Shown here piece by piece: positions 137 to 6,362 of a stretch of DNA of 32,114 nt. The DNA comes from Candidatus Thermoplasmatota archaeon (GTDB lineage: Archaea; Thermoplasmatota; E2; DHVEG-1), in contig JAWABU010000020.1 of NCBI GenBank assembly GCA_038884455.1, positions 1 to 32,114 on the forward strand, in the 5' to 3' direction. Below the pieces are notes generated by a model, which made no database searches, was not told the origin of the DNA, and was given only the letters and a program-made list of their open reading frames with translations. The position numbers and the translations under genes were made by a program. Numbering within the stretch: the first letter of the stretch is position 1; every line of letters starts with the position of its first letter.

Positions 137-949
137 TTACATGATTCGTTCTATCATCTCGAGAACAAAACCACTATCATCTATGACATATCGGGCGATG
201 CCTATTTTTTTTGCATAATTTCTCATCTTTTTTACGGAAAGAAACCGTTCAAACGATGATCCTTTTTGGATAACATCAAGTTCAAGAACACAATCAGCAA
301 GACCTTCAAGTTTTCGTTCGAGAAGTTCTCCATGAATTCCCTTCGTCATGACAATAATGAAGGCACCACGTTTTTTAAGATTGGTGATTTTAGAAGCATA
401 AATTGTCTTTAATACGTCTTCTTGACGATACTGGCTGAGGAAAAAATCAAGAGAATTAATGATAACCATACGAAGTGCTGGTGCATCTTTTATCTTGTTT
501 GATACGACTGCGAGGTAATCTTCATCTCCGGTCACGGTTGATGGCATACCTGATGACCCTATTTCTATAAGTTCTTTGAGTTTGAGTTTGGATCGTTGTT
601 CGTAGATGCTGACTCTTTTTTGCTCTGTTTTCAAAACGTTTTGGTAATACTTTGCTGAAACATCGACGAATTCAAGACCGCTATGATTCCATTTGAAACG
701 ATTCATGGTATCGATGATTTCATCTTTGGTCTCTTCAGTGGTGATATATAAGGCATTACCTGCTGCTGCAATCTGTTTAACTAAAATTTCGGTACTGCTT
801 CCAGGTGATCCAAGAATGACGGTTGTAAAACCAGTGGGGATGCCACCTTCAAGGAGTCGATCAAGTTTTTCAATTCCTGTGCTAATAAACCCTTCTTTTT
901 TTTCTGTTGTAGAATTATCTATGAATGACTCTTTGATCATTGTATCCAT
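137..949 (-). CDS. KaiC/RAD55-family ATPase homologue with destroyed nucleotide-binding motifs
   Basis: A 270-residue RecA-fold protein of the KaiC/RAD55 family. The family frame is visible: STGIEKLDRLLEGGIPTG (residues 23-40) opens the domain, and a KKMRNY motif near 240-245 matches the KMRG motif of active family members. The Walker A position reads GSPGSSTE (47-54), so the essential lysine is T and the following Ser/Thr is E. The Walker B aspartate is also changed (VIINSLD, N165). It probably does not hydrolyse ATP and may be a structural or regulatory partner of the intact KaiC-like protein at 2132-2887. It is the last gene of the operon, 6 bases after the preceding gene, with a short AAGG sequence before the ATG. 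No frameshift is seen, so it looks maintained rather than decaying. Function unknown. Confidence 0.85.
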   Translation of the reverse strand: MDTMIKESFIDNSTTEKKEGFISTGIEKLDRLLEGGIPTGFTTVILGSPGSSTEILVKQIAAAGNALYITTEETKDEIIDTMNRFKWNHSGLEFVDVSAKYYQNVLKTEQKRVSIYEQRSKLKLKELIEIGSSGMPSTVTGDEDYLAVVSNKIKDAPALRMVIINSLDFFLSQYRQEDVLKTIYASKITNLKKRGAFIIVMTKGIHGELLERKLEGLADCVLELDVIQKGSSFERFLSVKKMRNYAKKIGIARYVIDDSGFVLEMIERIM

Positions 950-955
950 ATGCCT

Positions 956-1522
956 TTATAATTTTTTCGTAATAAGAAACGAGTTTTTTACTCGTTCTCG
1001 TTCAAATCGGTCCTTATATGATGCATATGCTTTGAAACAAATCTGAGGTGCTTGTGTAGCATCTGGATCTGAACTTGTAAGAAGCACTTCTCCTTTGGGA
1101 AACGCACTGAGGAATAATCCTCGTAAAACGCCATATGTGAAGAGTGAAGAAACAGTGGTTTCTGTGGTATTTGATAAAAGAGTTGACTTAGTGAGATGAG
1201 ATTGTACCTCATTATCTGTAATTTTTGTAAAAGAAAATTCTGCGCCAAGTGGTAAAAAGATTTCTTGTAAGGTATGTTGAAGCCAAGTTTGCAGTGTCCA
1301 TTCTTGTGGTTTCTCTTGTAGACGTTCAGCAAATAGCCCCCGACCGAATGCTTCTCCGGTTTGAAGAACGAGTTCGATATTTCCGCTGCTTGCAAGAAGT
1401 TTAGACACAGCGGCTTGAAATGCAGTTTCTTGCCGCTGGATCAACTCAGGACATTCCTTTTTTTCAGGAATCCAAATTGCCCCGCCACCGCTAGTTGAAA
1501 TTTTTTTTACTGATTCTATCAT
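956..1522 (-). CDS. Unknown 188-residue protein with weak V4R-like features
   Basis: I do not recognise this protein firmly. It is soluble, with no signal peptide or membrane segment. Two stretches resemble the V4R/Bet3-like ligand-binding fold: QTGEAFGRGLFAERL (about residues 54-68), and a glycine-containing helix YGVLRGLFLSAFPKGEV (about 130-146) followed by a strand. The usual V4R cysteine-rich tail is not clear; a single cysteine lies in QICFKAYA. It is third in a four-gene operon between two catalytically degenerate KaiC-family genes (gap 21 bases upstream, 6 downstream), so a sensory or adaptor role for the KaiC-like ATPases is plausible. That role is inferred only from context and faint similarity. 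Confidence 0.7.
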   Translation of the reverse strand: MIESVKKISTSGGGAIWIPEKKECPELIQRQETAFQAAVSKLLASSGNIELVLQTGEAFGRGLFAERLQEKPQEWTLQTWLQHTLQEIFLPLGAEFSFTKITDNEVQSHLTKSTLLSNTTETTVSSLFTYGVLRGLFLSAFPKGEVLLTSSDPDATQAPQICFKAYASYKDRFERERVKNSFLITKKL

Positions 1523-1543
1523 ACTTTAAACCCAGGTTGATGT

Positions 1544-2119
1544 TTATTCAATAAACGAATCTCGTAATACAATTATCTTGTCATTTAACTGAATAAGTTT
1601 ATCAGTATCCATTTCTTCTTCAATGACGATGGTAACAAGATGGACGTTTTCAGCACGAGTTCGATTCATTAAAAAATACACAAATTCCCTGATGATTTCT
1701 GAATCATTGTAGATCATTAATGCACTGAGCGAATCAATAACTATGTATTTATCTCCTTCATTCTTACTGGTTTGGATACTATTAATTATTTCTAGAGCGG
1801 TTTTCTCAAGCATCGTTGGACTTTCAATATAGGTGCAGTGTTTATCTAATTCAGAAATGCCGATGACTCGAGAGATACAATCAATAAATCTGACATTCGG
1901 GAGTTCGGTAATATGTTTGTATTTTTTAACAAGATAATCATAGGTGTTGCTGATGGTAACAAAGGTCCATGTATCCTGAGCATTGCTGGACATTGAGGTA
2001 AACAAGGCTTGTCGAAGATTTTCATGTCGATTTTCCGGTACTTGTATACCAACCGATTGGTTAATTTTAATTGCTACGCCAACACGATCTTTTATTCCTT
2101 CTATTATCGCATCAACCAT
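1544..2119 (-). CDS. RecA/KaiC-fold protein lacking Walker A, keeping a Walker B-like motif
   Basis: A 191-residue protein that looks like a RecA-fold domain shortened at its front. There is no P-loop in the first 60 residues, where strands WTFVTISNTYDYL and NVRFIDCISRVIG (about 51-87) stand in. A Walker B-like segment KYIVIDSLSALMIY (D129) aligns with RLVMDSITAL of the intact neighbour at 2132-2887. The C terminus (HLVTIVIEEEMDTDKLIQLNDKIIVLRD) matches the family's last strands and stops before the KMRG region. It resembles the shortened RecA-like proteins annotated in haloarchaea and Thermoplasmatota. The start is supported by AAGGAG about 8 bases upstream of ATG 2119. It is second in the operon, 12 bases after the active ATPase gene. 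Likely a non-hydrolysing partner; function unknown. Confidence 0.8.
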   Translation of the reverse strand: MVDAIIEGIKDRVGVAIKINQSVGIQVPENRHENLRQALFTSMSSNAQDTWTFVTISNTYDYLVKKYKHITELPNVRFIDCISRVIGISELDKHCTYIESPTMLEKTALEIINSIQTSKNEGDKYIVIDSLSALMIYNDSEIIREFVYFLMNRTRAENVHLVTIVIEEEMDTDKLIQLNDKIIVLRDSFIE

Positions 2120-2131
2120 TTTTATCTCTCC

Positions 2132-2887
2132 TTAATGTTTCAACAACGATTCAAATTCAGAGGAGCGTAACAAAGGAACCAGCTCGATACCTCGTTGTGA
2201 TGATATGTTCATTGCGTATTTTGTGCGGGAATGAGAAATACCTCGCATTTTAACAACCTGTAATGTTCGAATAAGATCACCACGCCGTTCCAGATCACCA
2301 AGAAAAATAATACCATCAGAAATAAACTCTTCAATTTCATATTGTGAGAATTTATATGTTCGTGGTGGCACCTCCGAGGTTAAAAACGTTGTACAATTCA
2401 TAACAGCAAGCGACGTTCCGAGTTTAAAAATAAAATCACGAATCATCTCTCGTGTCTGCAATCGATAACACAGTGCTGTAATAGAATCCATGACTAAGCG
2501 TTTGACATCAAGTTCATCAGCAATATCCTTTAAAATATCAAGCAACGCACCAGCATCCTCAACCGTATATTTTTCAGCATCAAGACCAAGTCGTTCGCTG
2601 ATAATCCGAAGATCAATGATGTTGACCATCCCAGATTCAATAAGTTTTTTATCGTAAAAACAAAAACCTTCGAGGTTTTTTGTAAGTTTAAACAAGGGCT
2701 CGGTGATGGTAAAAAAGACCCCGCGTTCACCTTTTCTTGCTCCATCAAAAAGATACTGCATACAGAGTGTTGTTTTACCCGAACCACTACAGCCGGTTAC
2801 TAGCACAGTGCTTCCTGTTGGTATACCACCATTCATCTGAGTATCAAGTTCTACAATTCCTGTTGAAACCAATTCTTTTTTAGGCAT
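2132..2887 (-). CDS. KaiC/RAD55-family RecA-fold ATPase with intact motifs
   Basis: A 251-residue single-domain KaiC-like ATPase. The family opener STGIVELDTQMNGGIPTG (8-25) is followed by Walker A GCSGSGKTT (32-40), an acidic ITEP segment after strand 2 (61-64) near the usual catalytic glutamate, Walker B RLVMDSITAL (D134), and KMRGISHS (213-220), the arginine/lysine motif typical of KaiC. No kinase, DNA-binding or second KaiC domain is attached. Family members of this kind are used in archaeal signal transduction and motility (FlaH is a relative), but the target is unknown. It is the first gene of the four-gene minus-strand operon, preceded by a GAGGAG-type ribosome binding site and a TATA element near 2938-2950. 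It is the only member of the cassette expected to bind and hydrolyse ATP. Confidence 0.9.
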   Translation of the reverse strand: MPKKELVSTGIVELDTQMNGGIPTGSTVLVTGCSGSGKTTLCMQYLFDGARKGERGVFFTITEPLFKLTKNLEGFCFYDKKLIESGMVNIIDLRIISERLGLDAEKYTVEDAGALLDILKDIADELDVKRLVMDSITALCYRLQTREMIRDFIFKLGTSLAVMNCTTFLTSEVPPRTYKFSQYEIEEFISDGIIFLGDLERRGDLIRTLQVVKMRGISHSRTKYAMNISSQRGIELVPLLRSSEFESLLKH

Positions 2888-2935
2888 AGCCCTCTCCTCA
2901 ACCTGTTCAACAAATGTATGTACGTGATATACAGA

Positions 2936-2950
2936 GCTATAATATAAAAC
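2936..2950 (-). promoter_or_regulatory. TATA promoter of the KaiC-family operon
   Basis: The minus strand reads TTAAGTTTTATATTATAG, an A/T-rich archaeal TATA element roughly 50-60 bases before the first ATG. A GAGGAG ribosome binding site lies just before ATG 2887. It separates this operon from the diaphorase operon upstream, whose transcript probably ends in the T-rich stretch at about 2957-2985. Confidence 0.45.
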
Positions 2951-2956
2951 TTAAGG

Positions 2957-2985
2957 TTTTGAAAAAAGAAAAAAAGAAAGAAAAT
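2957..2985 (-). terminator. T-rich terminator after the diaphorase operon
   Basis: Immediately after the stop of the NuoG/HoxU-like gene the minus strand is strongly T-rich (TTTTCTTTCTTTTTTTC and similar). Oligo-T termination is the usual archaeal signal. No strong hairpin is seen. Confidence 0.45.
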
Positions 2986-2987
2986 TT

Positions 2988-3603: not shown

Positions 3604-5502
3604 TCACCTCCGCTCTACAGATACTACTTTTTTTTGTTTGCCGGTTGCTTTTTGTACTGCATTAAATTTACACACCTCGTAACAATTACCGCATTTAATA
3701 CAAATATCAGAATTAATATGATGTACTGTTTTCTTTTCTCCGGTAATCGCTTCAACAGGACAATTTTTCATACACAGACCGCAACCGGTACATTTCGCAG
3801 CATCAATGGTAAACGTGAGTAATCCTTTGCAGACTTTTGCGGGACATTCACCATTGATATGAGCTTGATATTCATCACGGAAGTATTGGAGAGTACTTAG
3901 AACCGGATTTGGAGCAGATTGTCCAAGAGCGCAGAGTGACGAAAGTTGAACAACTTCAGAAAGTTCCTCCAAAAGTTTCACATCATCCTCAGTTGCTTCC
4001 CCGGTGGTAAGATCATTTAAAATACGAAGCATATGACGTAATCCTTCACGACAAGGTATACACTTCCCGCAGGATTCTTGAGACAGGAAATTGACAAAAT
4101 AACGAGCAATGTCCACCATACAGGTATCTTCATCCATGACAATCATTCCGCCAGAACCCATCATAGATCCGACCTTGTATAATTCGTCGAAATCTACAGG
4201 AAGATCGAGATATTTTTCTGGCAAACAGCCACCTGAAGGACCACCGGTCTGTACTGCTTTGAATTTTTTACCATTTGGAACACCTCCTCCAATGGTGTAA
4301 ATGATTTCTCGAAGAGTTGTTCCCATAGGAACTTCGACCAGTCCGGTATTATTGACTTTGCCGACGAGAGAGAAAATTTTTGTTCCTTTGCTGTTCTCGG
4401 TGCCGATTTTCTGGAACCAGGCAGCTCCATTATTGATGATCAGAGGTACATTTGCCCAGGTTTCAACATTGTTCAAACAAGTTGGTTTATTCCACAAACC
4501 ACTCACAGCAGTATGAATATATTTTGGTCGTGGTTCTCCAACCCTCCCCTCAATGGCAGACATCAGCGCACTTGATTCTCCAGAGACAAAAGCACCTGCA
4601 CCTCGATGAACAGTAATCGTGAAATCAAACCCAGATCCGAGAATATTTTTTCCGAGTAATCCAAGTTCCTCAAGTTTTTTTATCGCAATTTCAGTGTTTT
4701 CAACCGCAAGAGGATATTCCTGTCGGACATAGACAAAACCTTCATTTGCTCCTATAGCATATCCGCCAATCATAAGTCCCTCAAGAACAAGATGTGGGTT
4801 TCCCTCCATAAGTGCTCGATCCATAAACGCACCTGGATCTCCTTCATCGCAGTTGACAATAACGTATTTTTTATCGCTTTGGGCGTTTCTCGTAGTTTCC
4901 CATTTTCTCCCCGTGGGAAAACCACCGCCACCACGACCTCGAAGATTGGATTTTTTCACTTCTTCAAGGACTTCTTCAGGTTTCATGTCAAACAATGCTT
5001 TTGCAAGAGCACTATATCCACCGTAAAGGATATAATCATCAATATTTTTTGAATCAATTTTCATGTTGTTTCCAAGGAGTATCCGCTTTTGATGTTTATA
5101 AAAAGGAATGTCTGATTCTTTTTTTATTGGTTTTGTACTGTGTGGATCAGTGTATAATAATCGTGGAATAACTTTTTTCTTGACAATTGTTTCAGAAACA
5201 ATTTCAGCAACGTCTTCAGGTTGAACTTTGATATAGTTGATTTCTTCAGGATGAATGACGACAAGAGCTCCTTTTTCACAAAAACCAGGACACCCGGCTT
5301 CTTTTACTTCGACGTTTGCTGAGAGTTTATGTTTCTTGATTTCTTCTCTGAAATTATCGACGACTTCTTGAGCTTTGAGAGCAAGACAGCCAGTACCAGC
5401 GCAGACTGAAATTGTAATGTTTTTTGAACCTTTTTGTTTTTGAAGGTTTTTTCGGTATTGTTCTAATTCTTTTCTAGAAGTAATTTTCGTCATTTTTTTC
5501 AC
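3604..5502 (-). CDS. NuoF/HoxF/HndC-like NAD(P)H-oxidising flavoprotein with extra ferredoxin domains
   Basis: A 632-residue fusion. Residues 28-110 are a thioredoxin-like [2Fe-2S] domain (C34, C39, C71, C75). Residues about 130-470 form the NADH/FMN domain with GRGGGGFPTGRKW (189-201) and NCDEGDPGAFMDR (217-229). ESCGKCIPCREG (C478, C481, C484) plus C524 bind the N3-type [4Fe-4S] cluster. The C terminus adds two ferredoxin CxxCxxCxxxC motifs (571-581, 601-611). This order matches HndC/HydB subunits of soluble, often electron-bifurcating, NAD(P)-linked hydrogenases and dehydrogenases rather than respiratory NuoF. It oxidises or reduces NAD(P)H at FMN. Its start overlaps the end of the NuoE-like gene by 4 bases, indicating translational coupling. 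No catalytic hydrogenase or formate dehydrogenase subunit is adjacent. Confidence 0.93.
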   Translation of the reverse strand: MKKMTKITSRKELEQYRKNLQKQKGSKNITISVCAGTGCLALKAQEVVDNFREEIKKHKLSANVEVKEAGCPGFCEKGALVVIHPEEINYIKVQPEDVAEIVSETIVKKKVIPRLLYTDPHSTKPIKKESDIPFYKHQKRILLGNNMKIDSKNIDDYILYGGYSALAKALFDMKPEEVLEEVKKSNLRGRGGGGFPTGRKWETTRNAQSDKKYVIVNCDEGDPGAFMDRALMEGNPHLVLEGLMIGGYAIGANEGFVYVRQEYPLAVENTEIAIKKLEELGLLGKNILGSGFDFTITVHRGAGAFVSGESSALMSAIEGRVGEPRPKYIHTAVSGLWNKPTCLNNVETWANVPLIINNGAAWFQKIGTENSKGTKIFSLVGKVNNTGLVEVPMGTTLREIIYTIGGGVPNGKKFKAVQTGGPSGGCLPEKYLDLPVDFDELYKVGSMMGSGGMIVMDEDTCMVDIARYFVNFLSQESCGKCIPCREGLRHMLRILNDLTTGEATEDDVKLLEELSEVVQLSSLCALGQSAPNPVLSTLQYFRDEYQAHINGECPAKVCKGLLTFTIDAAKCTGCGLCMKNCPVEAITGEKKTVHHINSDICIKCGNCYEVCKFNAVQKATGKQKKVVSVERR

Positions 5503-6305
5503 CTACTTATTACGGGAGATGCCGGTTGATGTTGGGCAGTTGGTTTTCTTTTTTGTTGTTCGTTGGTTAATGCAGAAGTATCAGTTCGATACTGTTCAAG
5601 GATCTCTGGTACTTCGGAGGGTCGTAATTTTCCATGATAGTTTGTATCGACCATCATAACTGGTCCAAGTGCACAACAGCCAAGGCAGTTAACGCTTTCG
5701 AGGGTGAATTTTAAATCAGGTGTTGTTTCTCCTGATTTTATTCCAAGATGTTGTTCTGCTGCTTCGAGAATTTTTGGACCATCTCGTACATGGCATGCGG
5801 TTCCAAGACAGACTCGGATAATATGTTCACCATGCGGTTCCAAACTAAAAGCTTTATAAAAAGTAGCAATTTGGAGAATTTGCGCCATCGGAATATTAAG
5901 TCGTTCTGACACCCAAAGTAAAGCTGGCTTTGGTAACCAGTGTTTTTTTTCTTGAATCTTCAGAAGTATTTGAATGAGAGCATTCTTTTGACCCTGGTAT
6001 TCATCAATGATTTCATCGATTTCTCTGAGTTCTTGGATCATTTGTTTAACTGATTCTTCTCTTTTTTTAATTTGTTTAAGAGCTTGGAGGTGCTGTATTG
6101 CTTCTTCTTCAAGCTTTTTCAATTCGGTACTAAGGGGAGGTTGATCTAGACCAAGGGAATAGTATTCTGAGAGTAATTCAAGGCCTCGGAGGAGAATATC
6201 GCTTTTACTTAATTCAGAGGTTTTTTCTAGATTGTGTAAAGCTTTTTTTTGTTGTTCAGTTAGTCGTACTCCAACAAAATGGGATTTTGTTTTTTCTTTA
6301 GCCAT
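5499..6305 (-). CDS. NuoE/HoxE-like [2Fe-2S] subunit with N-terminal ribbon-helix-helix domain
   Basis: A 268-residue protein about 100 residues longer than usual NuoE. From about residue 105 on it is a normal 24-kDa-type subunit: a helical start (LLKIQEKKHWLPKPALLWVS), then thioredoxin-fold ligands C166, C171, C207 and C211 (VCLGTAC, NCLGCC). Before this lies an addition. Residues 9-52 (FVGVRLTEQQKKALHNLEK, then SELSKSDILLRGLELLSEYY) have the strand-helix-helix pattern of CopG/Arc DNA-binding domains, and residues 60-103 are a charged predicted coiled coil. A 3-codon upstream GTG start (6314) is possible; ATG 6305 is preferred. It is first in the operon with a TATA element at 6363-6375. The tail after about 245 is polar and low-complexity. 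The fusion might tie transcription to redox state or simply aid oligomerisation; neither is shown. Confidence 0.88.
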   Translation of the reverse strand: MAKEKTKSHFVGVRLTEQQKKALHNLEKTSELSKSDILLRGLELLSEYYSLGLDQPPLSTELKKLEEEAIQHLQALKQIKKREESVKQMIQELREIDEIIDEYQGQKNALIQILLKIQEKKHWLPKPALLWVSERLNIPMAQILQIATFYKAFSLEPHGEHIIRVCLGTACHVRDGPKILEAAEQHLGIKSGETTPDLKFTLESVNCLGCCALGPVMMVDTNYHGKLRPSEVPEILEQYRTDTSALTNEQQKRKPTAQHQPASPVISR

Positions 6306-6362
6306 GGGAATCACTTTGTGTTTAACTGTTTAACATATTTTGAAGGATGAGAAGGTAAAAGA

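Follow-up and report, generated by a model that had tools for sequence, protein, structure and literature searches.

Here we report that a four-gene KaiC-family cassette from a Thermoplasmatota archaeon belongs to an arrangement conserved across its phylum, in which one complete ATPase (g1) is encoded together with two relatives that lack a working P-loop (g2 and g4) and, in some loci, with a sensor-like protein (g3). Based on motifs, predicted folds, synteny, co-inheritance and selection, we give an about even chance to the cassette encoding a hetero-oligomeric, ATP-dependent KaiC-type switch whose subunits would associate physically. The initial annotation of this DNA proposed a mixed ring in which dead subunits regulate the active ATPase; this is also the best explanation we can offer, and we hold it with middling confidence, adding a mechanism that centres on the KxR finger.

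Results

The window, that is the whole stretch of 32,114 nucleotides analysed here, is one entire contig (C20) of a 1.70 Mb genome that is 98% complete. Its minus strand carries all four cassette genes, read from position 2887 to position 137 in the order g1 (2132-2887, 251 aa), g2 (1544-2119, 191 aa), g3 (956-1522, 188 aa) and g4 (137-949, 270 aa). As first annotated, the four frames are intact and tightly spaced, with gaps of 12 bp (g1/g2), 21 bp (g2/g3) and 6 bp (g3/g4), and the contig ends 136 bp past g4. On inspection of the sequence, the intergenic region upstream of g1 (2888-2987, minus strand) contains a TATA-like TTTTATATTA and a Shine-Dalgarno-like GAGGAGAGG, making it the likely candidate promoter for the whole operon. 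The nearest named relative found, in one contig scan, was the Candidatus Thermoplasmatota MAG CSMAG_2710, which also carries these four genes. Directly upstream of the cassette lies a NuoE/NuoF/NuoG-like cluster, headed by a gene (5499-6314, minus strand) for a NuoE-like protein with what reads as an N-terminal ribbon-helix-helix-like segment.

The product of g1 is a complete KaiC-family ATPase, scoring 191 bits against PF06745 (cut-off 26.6) and carrying Walker A (GCSGSGKT), Walker B (VMDS) and KMRG (KMRGISHSR) motifs, all three of which had been recognised previously. Among 56-57 orthologues the Walker A Lys and Thr, Glu63, the Walker B Asp and the K and R of KMRG are invariant. The protein has a single Glu (TITEP) at the position where KaiC has a Glu pair. 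More specific identities were rejected by score: g1 reaches 108 bits against the circadian KaiC equivalog (TIGR02655, cut-off 546), 37 bits against ArlH (NF052589, cut-off 215) and 25.6 bits against RadB/RadA paralogues (TIGR02237, cut-off 172.4). A defence system was also considered and rejected, the sole match being weak and of P-loop type (mad8, 22.8 bits).

The fourth gene also encodes a member of the KaiC family (76 bits against PF06745, cut-off 26.6), but one that lacks the Walker A Lys and Thr/Ser by which an active KaiC-type ATPase is recognised. Its P-loop is a destroyed Walker A reading GSPGSSTE; across 62 orthologues the Thr position is Glu in 60 and Asp in two, and the Lys is left in only three. 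The initial annotation described this loop correctly for the window, together with an Asn in Walker B, yet that Asn is not general, being found in 34 of the 62 orthologues beside Asp in 21, His in five and Ser in two. What g4 has retained is the TEET Glu and the K-x-R of KKMRN: Glu73 is conserved in 62 of 62 sequences, and at KxR the first position is Lys and the last Arg or Lys in all 60 compared. The residue that follows is Asn rather than Gly in 59 of these 60, so the geometry of the finger may differ. In KaiC-type rings, ATP sits between neighbouring subunits, and the Lys and Arg of KxR, within the KMRG motif, are supplied by the neighbour. In KaiC itself, Lys224 and Arg226 from the adjacent subunit contact the gamma-phosphate of ATP (PMC9599734). 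The loss of a loop that acts in cis and the retention of a finger that acts in trans is the pattern that would be expected of a non-catalytic, finger-donating member of a ring, although the retained KxR could instead serve local folding.

In contrast to g4, g2 has kept neither interface motif. As previously noted, the P-loop is absent and Walker B retained (IVIDS), with its Asp present in 54 of 54 orthologues; in addition, the alignment places the end of the protein short of the KMRG hairpin. The window's g2 falls below all Pfam cut-offs (DUF7504, 22.4 against 27 bits; DUF835, 19.7 against 33.1; KaiC likewise sub-threshold) and DUF7090 has no match in the window's genome, whereas the g2 orthologue in L172 scores 32.7 bits against the DUF7090 cut-off of 27. 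Since profile-profile comparison of g2 with g1 gave a probability of just 70%, we judged the fold from a predicted structure. An AF2 model built with 21 orthologues (pLDDT 90) has as its best PDB match in Foldseek SSO2452 (E 3.4e-6), which we take to be a RadA paralogue, and also matches KaiC and PH0284. On this model, g2 is predicted to have the RecA/KaiC core fold, and we describe it as an inactivated, DUF7504/DUF835/DUF7090-like member of that fold.

The optional third gene has, in the window, no match in Pfam or NCBIfam, MetOD1 (PF18546) included. Its AF2 model (pLDDT 82) retrieves Bet3/TRAPP subunits in Foldseek (Bet3, E 2.8e-4, TM 0.52) and, with weaker E-values, H-NOX and the MopR phenol sensor domain, and is thus assigned, at fold level only, to a predicted Bet3/V4R/H-NOX type. 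Two distant orthologues, in L171 and L173, exceed the MetOD1 cut-off of 23.8 with 24.5 and 26.0 bits, and, by inspection of their sequences, contain two g3-like halves. MetOD1 has been described as a relative of HNOB, V4R and ATC hydrolase and is also found fused to receivers (PMC5847659). While g3 shares its predicted fold with these MetOD1, V4R, H-NOX and Bet3 proteins, it differs from them in having no Pfam match of its own in the window and in being a stand-alone gene within a KaiC operon. The earlier suggestion that g3 is a sensor gains support from the modelled fold and the MetOD1 kinship, and a ligand sensor is its probable identity. In G060 (L152:3588-4115) g3 is divergent and has an in-frame TAG, and is possibly decaying beside intact neighbours.

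Conserved synteny had been set beforehand as a test of the initial annotation, and it is borne out phylum-wide. In all 52 Thermoplasmatota loci where g1, g2 and g4 were identified together, the genes lie on one strand in the single order g1-g2-(g3)-g4, with g3 present in 21, a largest gap of 87 bp and 4-bp stop/start overlaps common; such constancy of order and strand is far above chance. These loci take in the majority of the genera sampled from the family of the window, family f2 of its order, and, elsewhere in the phylum, loci that were chosen by their g4. Outside the class, g1 and g2 adjoin g4 in 16 of 20 loci, a figure conditional on g4, by which these loci were chosen; as an internal control, the neighbour that ranks next in conservation recurs in just three of these loci. 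A search with the g4 profile (E <= 1e-30) hit 156 of 390 Thermoplasmatota genomes, with neighbours checked for part of these. Within the class, genomes sampled from families f7 and f10 showed no g4 at the threshold of the search used. A plasmid search, with haloarchaeal plasmids in mind, returned nothing for g2 and only weak KaiC-type matches for g4.

In four of the 20 loci (L174, L176, L179 and L183) there is no g1 or g2 near g4, which can thus work in another setting. Two of these lone copies (L176:6064-7014 and L174:6473-7453; families f16 and f26) have an N-terminal extension and adjoin a gene for a charged, coiled-coil-like protein, suggesting another partner. Among deviating members, G031 has g1-g3-g4, G033 has g1-g4 with no g2 between, and in G039 g1 and g4 are separated by a stand-alone CheY-like receiver gene of opposite orientation (L103:8874-9284).

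Within one genus (eight species), median dN/dS by NG86 is about 0.02 for g1, 0.06 for g2, 0.2 (0.21) for g3 and 0.05 for g4, values that are approximate because dS exceeds 1 in many pairs. The dead paralogues, whose loss of catalysis had been supposed to be selected, are thus under strong purifying selection (about 0.05-0.06), and pseudogene-like evolution was not seen; the interrupted g1, g2 and g4 frames that were checked (G001, G043 and G052) all lie at scaffold runs of N. In the tree, g1 and g4 form two separate, well supported groups that branch alike. Over 52 genomes, pairwise distances correlate at 0.86-0.92 among g1, g2 and g4 (g1-g4, 0.92; g1-g2, 0.89; Mantel test, 0/999), a correlation to which shared species history contributes. 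Since three ATPase-type genes hold one order in 52 of 52 loci across the phylum, it is almost certain that the dead copies function as regulatory parts and are not decaying genes.

Discussion

We propose the following model for the cassette. The sole subunit with a complete ATP site is g1. Since g4 has lost its phosphate-binding loop and kept KxR, we place it beside g1 in the ring as a finger donor, where it would complete or trigger the ATP site of g1 without binding ATP itself and so occupy a fixed regulatory seat. As g2 has neither P-loop nor finger, its role may be that of a cap, a wedge or an adaptor, either breaking the symmetry of the ring or carrying the output. Where present, g3 would be a replaceable sensor that biases the switch on binding a ligand, either small or lipophilic. 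A similar part in input or output may fall, in certain lineages, to an EarA-type regulator or CheY-like receiver encoded next to the cassette. The output itself may be transcription or surface structures. Taken to its full extent, the model describes a phylum-wide KaiC machine in which g4, with its ruined P-loop, donates a KxR finger to the lone active subunit, so that the ATP switch runs one way and is gated from outside, with a division into catalytic and non-catalytic subunits like that of F1-ATPase, but of independent origin in the KaiC family; this fuller version we put forward tentatively, as a real possibility that falls short of an even chance.

Conservation of an operon is not proof of contact between g1, g2 and g4, and it is conceivable that g1 forms homo-rings while g2 and g4 act elsewhere. 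In such a signalling hub, a homo-hexamer of g1 would be contacted transiently by g2 and g4 as separate adaptors with inactivated KaiC (iKaiC) domains, serving input and output, in line with what has been suggested in general terms for KaiC hubs of archaea. We consider this unlikely, though deserving of serious attention: iKaiC domains of other archaea are fused to receivers and sensors, g4 occurs without nearby g1 and g2 in the four loci described above, and both interface motifs are lost from g2. However, a hub leaves unexplained why g4 should retain KxR in 60 of 60 sequences beside a destroyed P-loop, and why the gene order should be so tight and fixed. Both are features that the mixed ring with g4 as finger donor would accommodate.

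The cassette could also be read as a recombination mediator of the Rad55/57 kind, in which an active RecA-fold subunit and two degenerate ones would load RadA or regulate it. RAD51-paralogue complexes such as Rad55/57 and BCDX2 do combine active RecA-fold subunits with degenerate ones, SSO2452 is the solved structure nearest to g2, and 11 loci of the window's family (L087, where the distance is 77 bp, L152, L153 and eight others) have a RadA-type gene downstream of the cassette on the same strand. We nevertheless find this identity improbable, as RadA does not recur as a neighbour in the 20 loci sampled beyond the class, g1 scores far under the RadB cut-off (25.6 against 172.4 bits), leaving the cassette without membership of a recombinase family by score, and a sensor-like partner of Bet3/V4R type would be unexpected in such a complex.

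A third reading, for which we see little prospect, casts the cassette as ArlH-like, a regulator or platform in the cytoplasm that would serve type IV pili or archaella and have the dead subunits as structural members of its ring. ArlH (FlaH) is itself KaiC-like (PMC13286277) and, like the cassette's ATPase, a single-domain archaeal protein, with a regulatory ATP-binding role. Genes for type IV pilins (Pilin_N) lie downstream of the cassette in L178, L181 and L182, from three families, and 14 loci, all without g3, have a gene for an EarA-family transcription factor at 26-1491 bp downstream of g4 (L081, L083, L085, L086, L092, L096, L097, L099, L100, L156, L157, L159, L160 and L161). This gene is absent from g3-bearing loci, although several of these stop short of where it would lie and the pattern tracks phylogeny. 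Against such a role, G000 has four EarA-family genes on other contigs, g1 reaches 37 bits against an ArlH cut-off of 215, no archaellum motor genes were recognised beside the cassette, and the cassette has two extra dead paralogues. Furthermore, T2SSF genes occur almost throughout the class, in families without g4 as well, and an association with pili by presence or absence is for this reason uninformative. No neighbour is universal; as a whole the context points to signalling, possibly towards surface structures or transcription. In L171 and L187, from two families, the upstream gene encodes a lamin tail domain protein with an N-terminal hydrophobic segment.

Finally, that g2 and g4 are functionless, decaying duplicates would fit their lost ATPase motifs but is refuted by a dN/dS of about 0.05, by invariant residues outside those motifs, by an order kept in 52 of 52 loci and by interrupted frames that proved to be scaffold gaps.

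The mixed ring that we favour can be set against other KaiC proteins. It would share with the cyanobacterial clock KaiC the PF06745 fold and a KxR finger between subunits, but clock KaiC is a homo-hexamer of double-domain subunits whereas in the cassette each KaiC-type protein is single-domain and has its own gene, and two lack a functional P-loop. Hubs of archaeal signal transduction that are KaiC-like and include iKaiC domains have already been described, and DUF835, whose holders include Thermoplasmata, is counted as iKaiC, according to Galperin et al., 2018 (PMC5847659), which cites Makarova et al., 2017. Those hubs resemble the cassette in tying a KaiC ATPase and inactivated KaiC domains to sensor or receiver modules; they differ in that the two distinct dead paralogues described here are separate genes, fixed phylum-wide in an operon with the active one, that the cassette proteins are not two-component fusions, and that one dead paralogue keeps the KxR finger. 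Given these earlier descriptions, the initial claim of a new signalling arrangement was too strong. A limited literature search found no description of the fixed three-gene core with its two dead paralogues, conserved finger and optional MetOD1-like partner.

If our reading is correct, the cassette represents a core signalling module that is conserved widely in Thermoplasmatota, with a function for which the same limited search found no description. It would also be a natural case of an active ATPase and its non-catalytic regulators having evolved within one family. The lost P-loop and retained finger of g4 offer a specific biochemical prediction that is cheap to examine, and the roles of archaeal iKaiC proteins, so far drawn mostly from genome surveys, would become directly testable. 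A second, paralogous arrangement was observed in relatives (L108, L109, L112 and L113), where a KaiC gene lies beside one or two g2-like (DUF835-type) genes.
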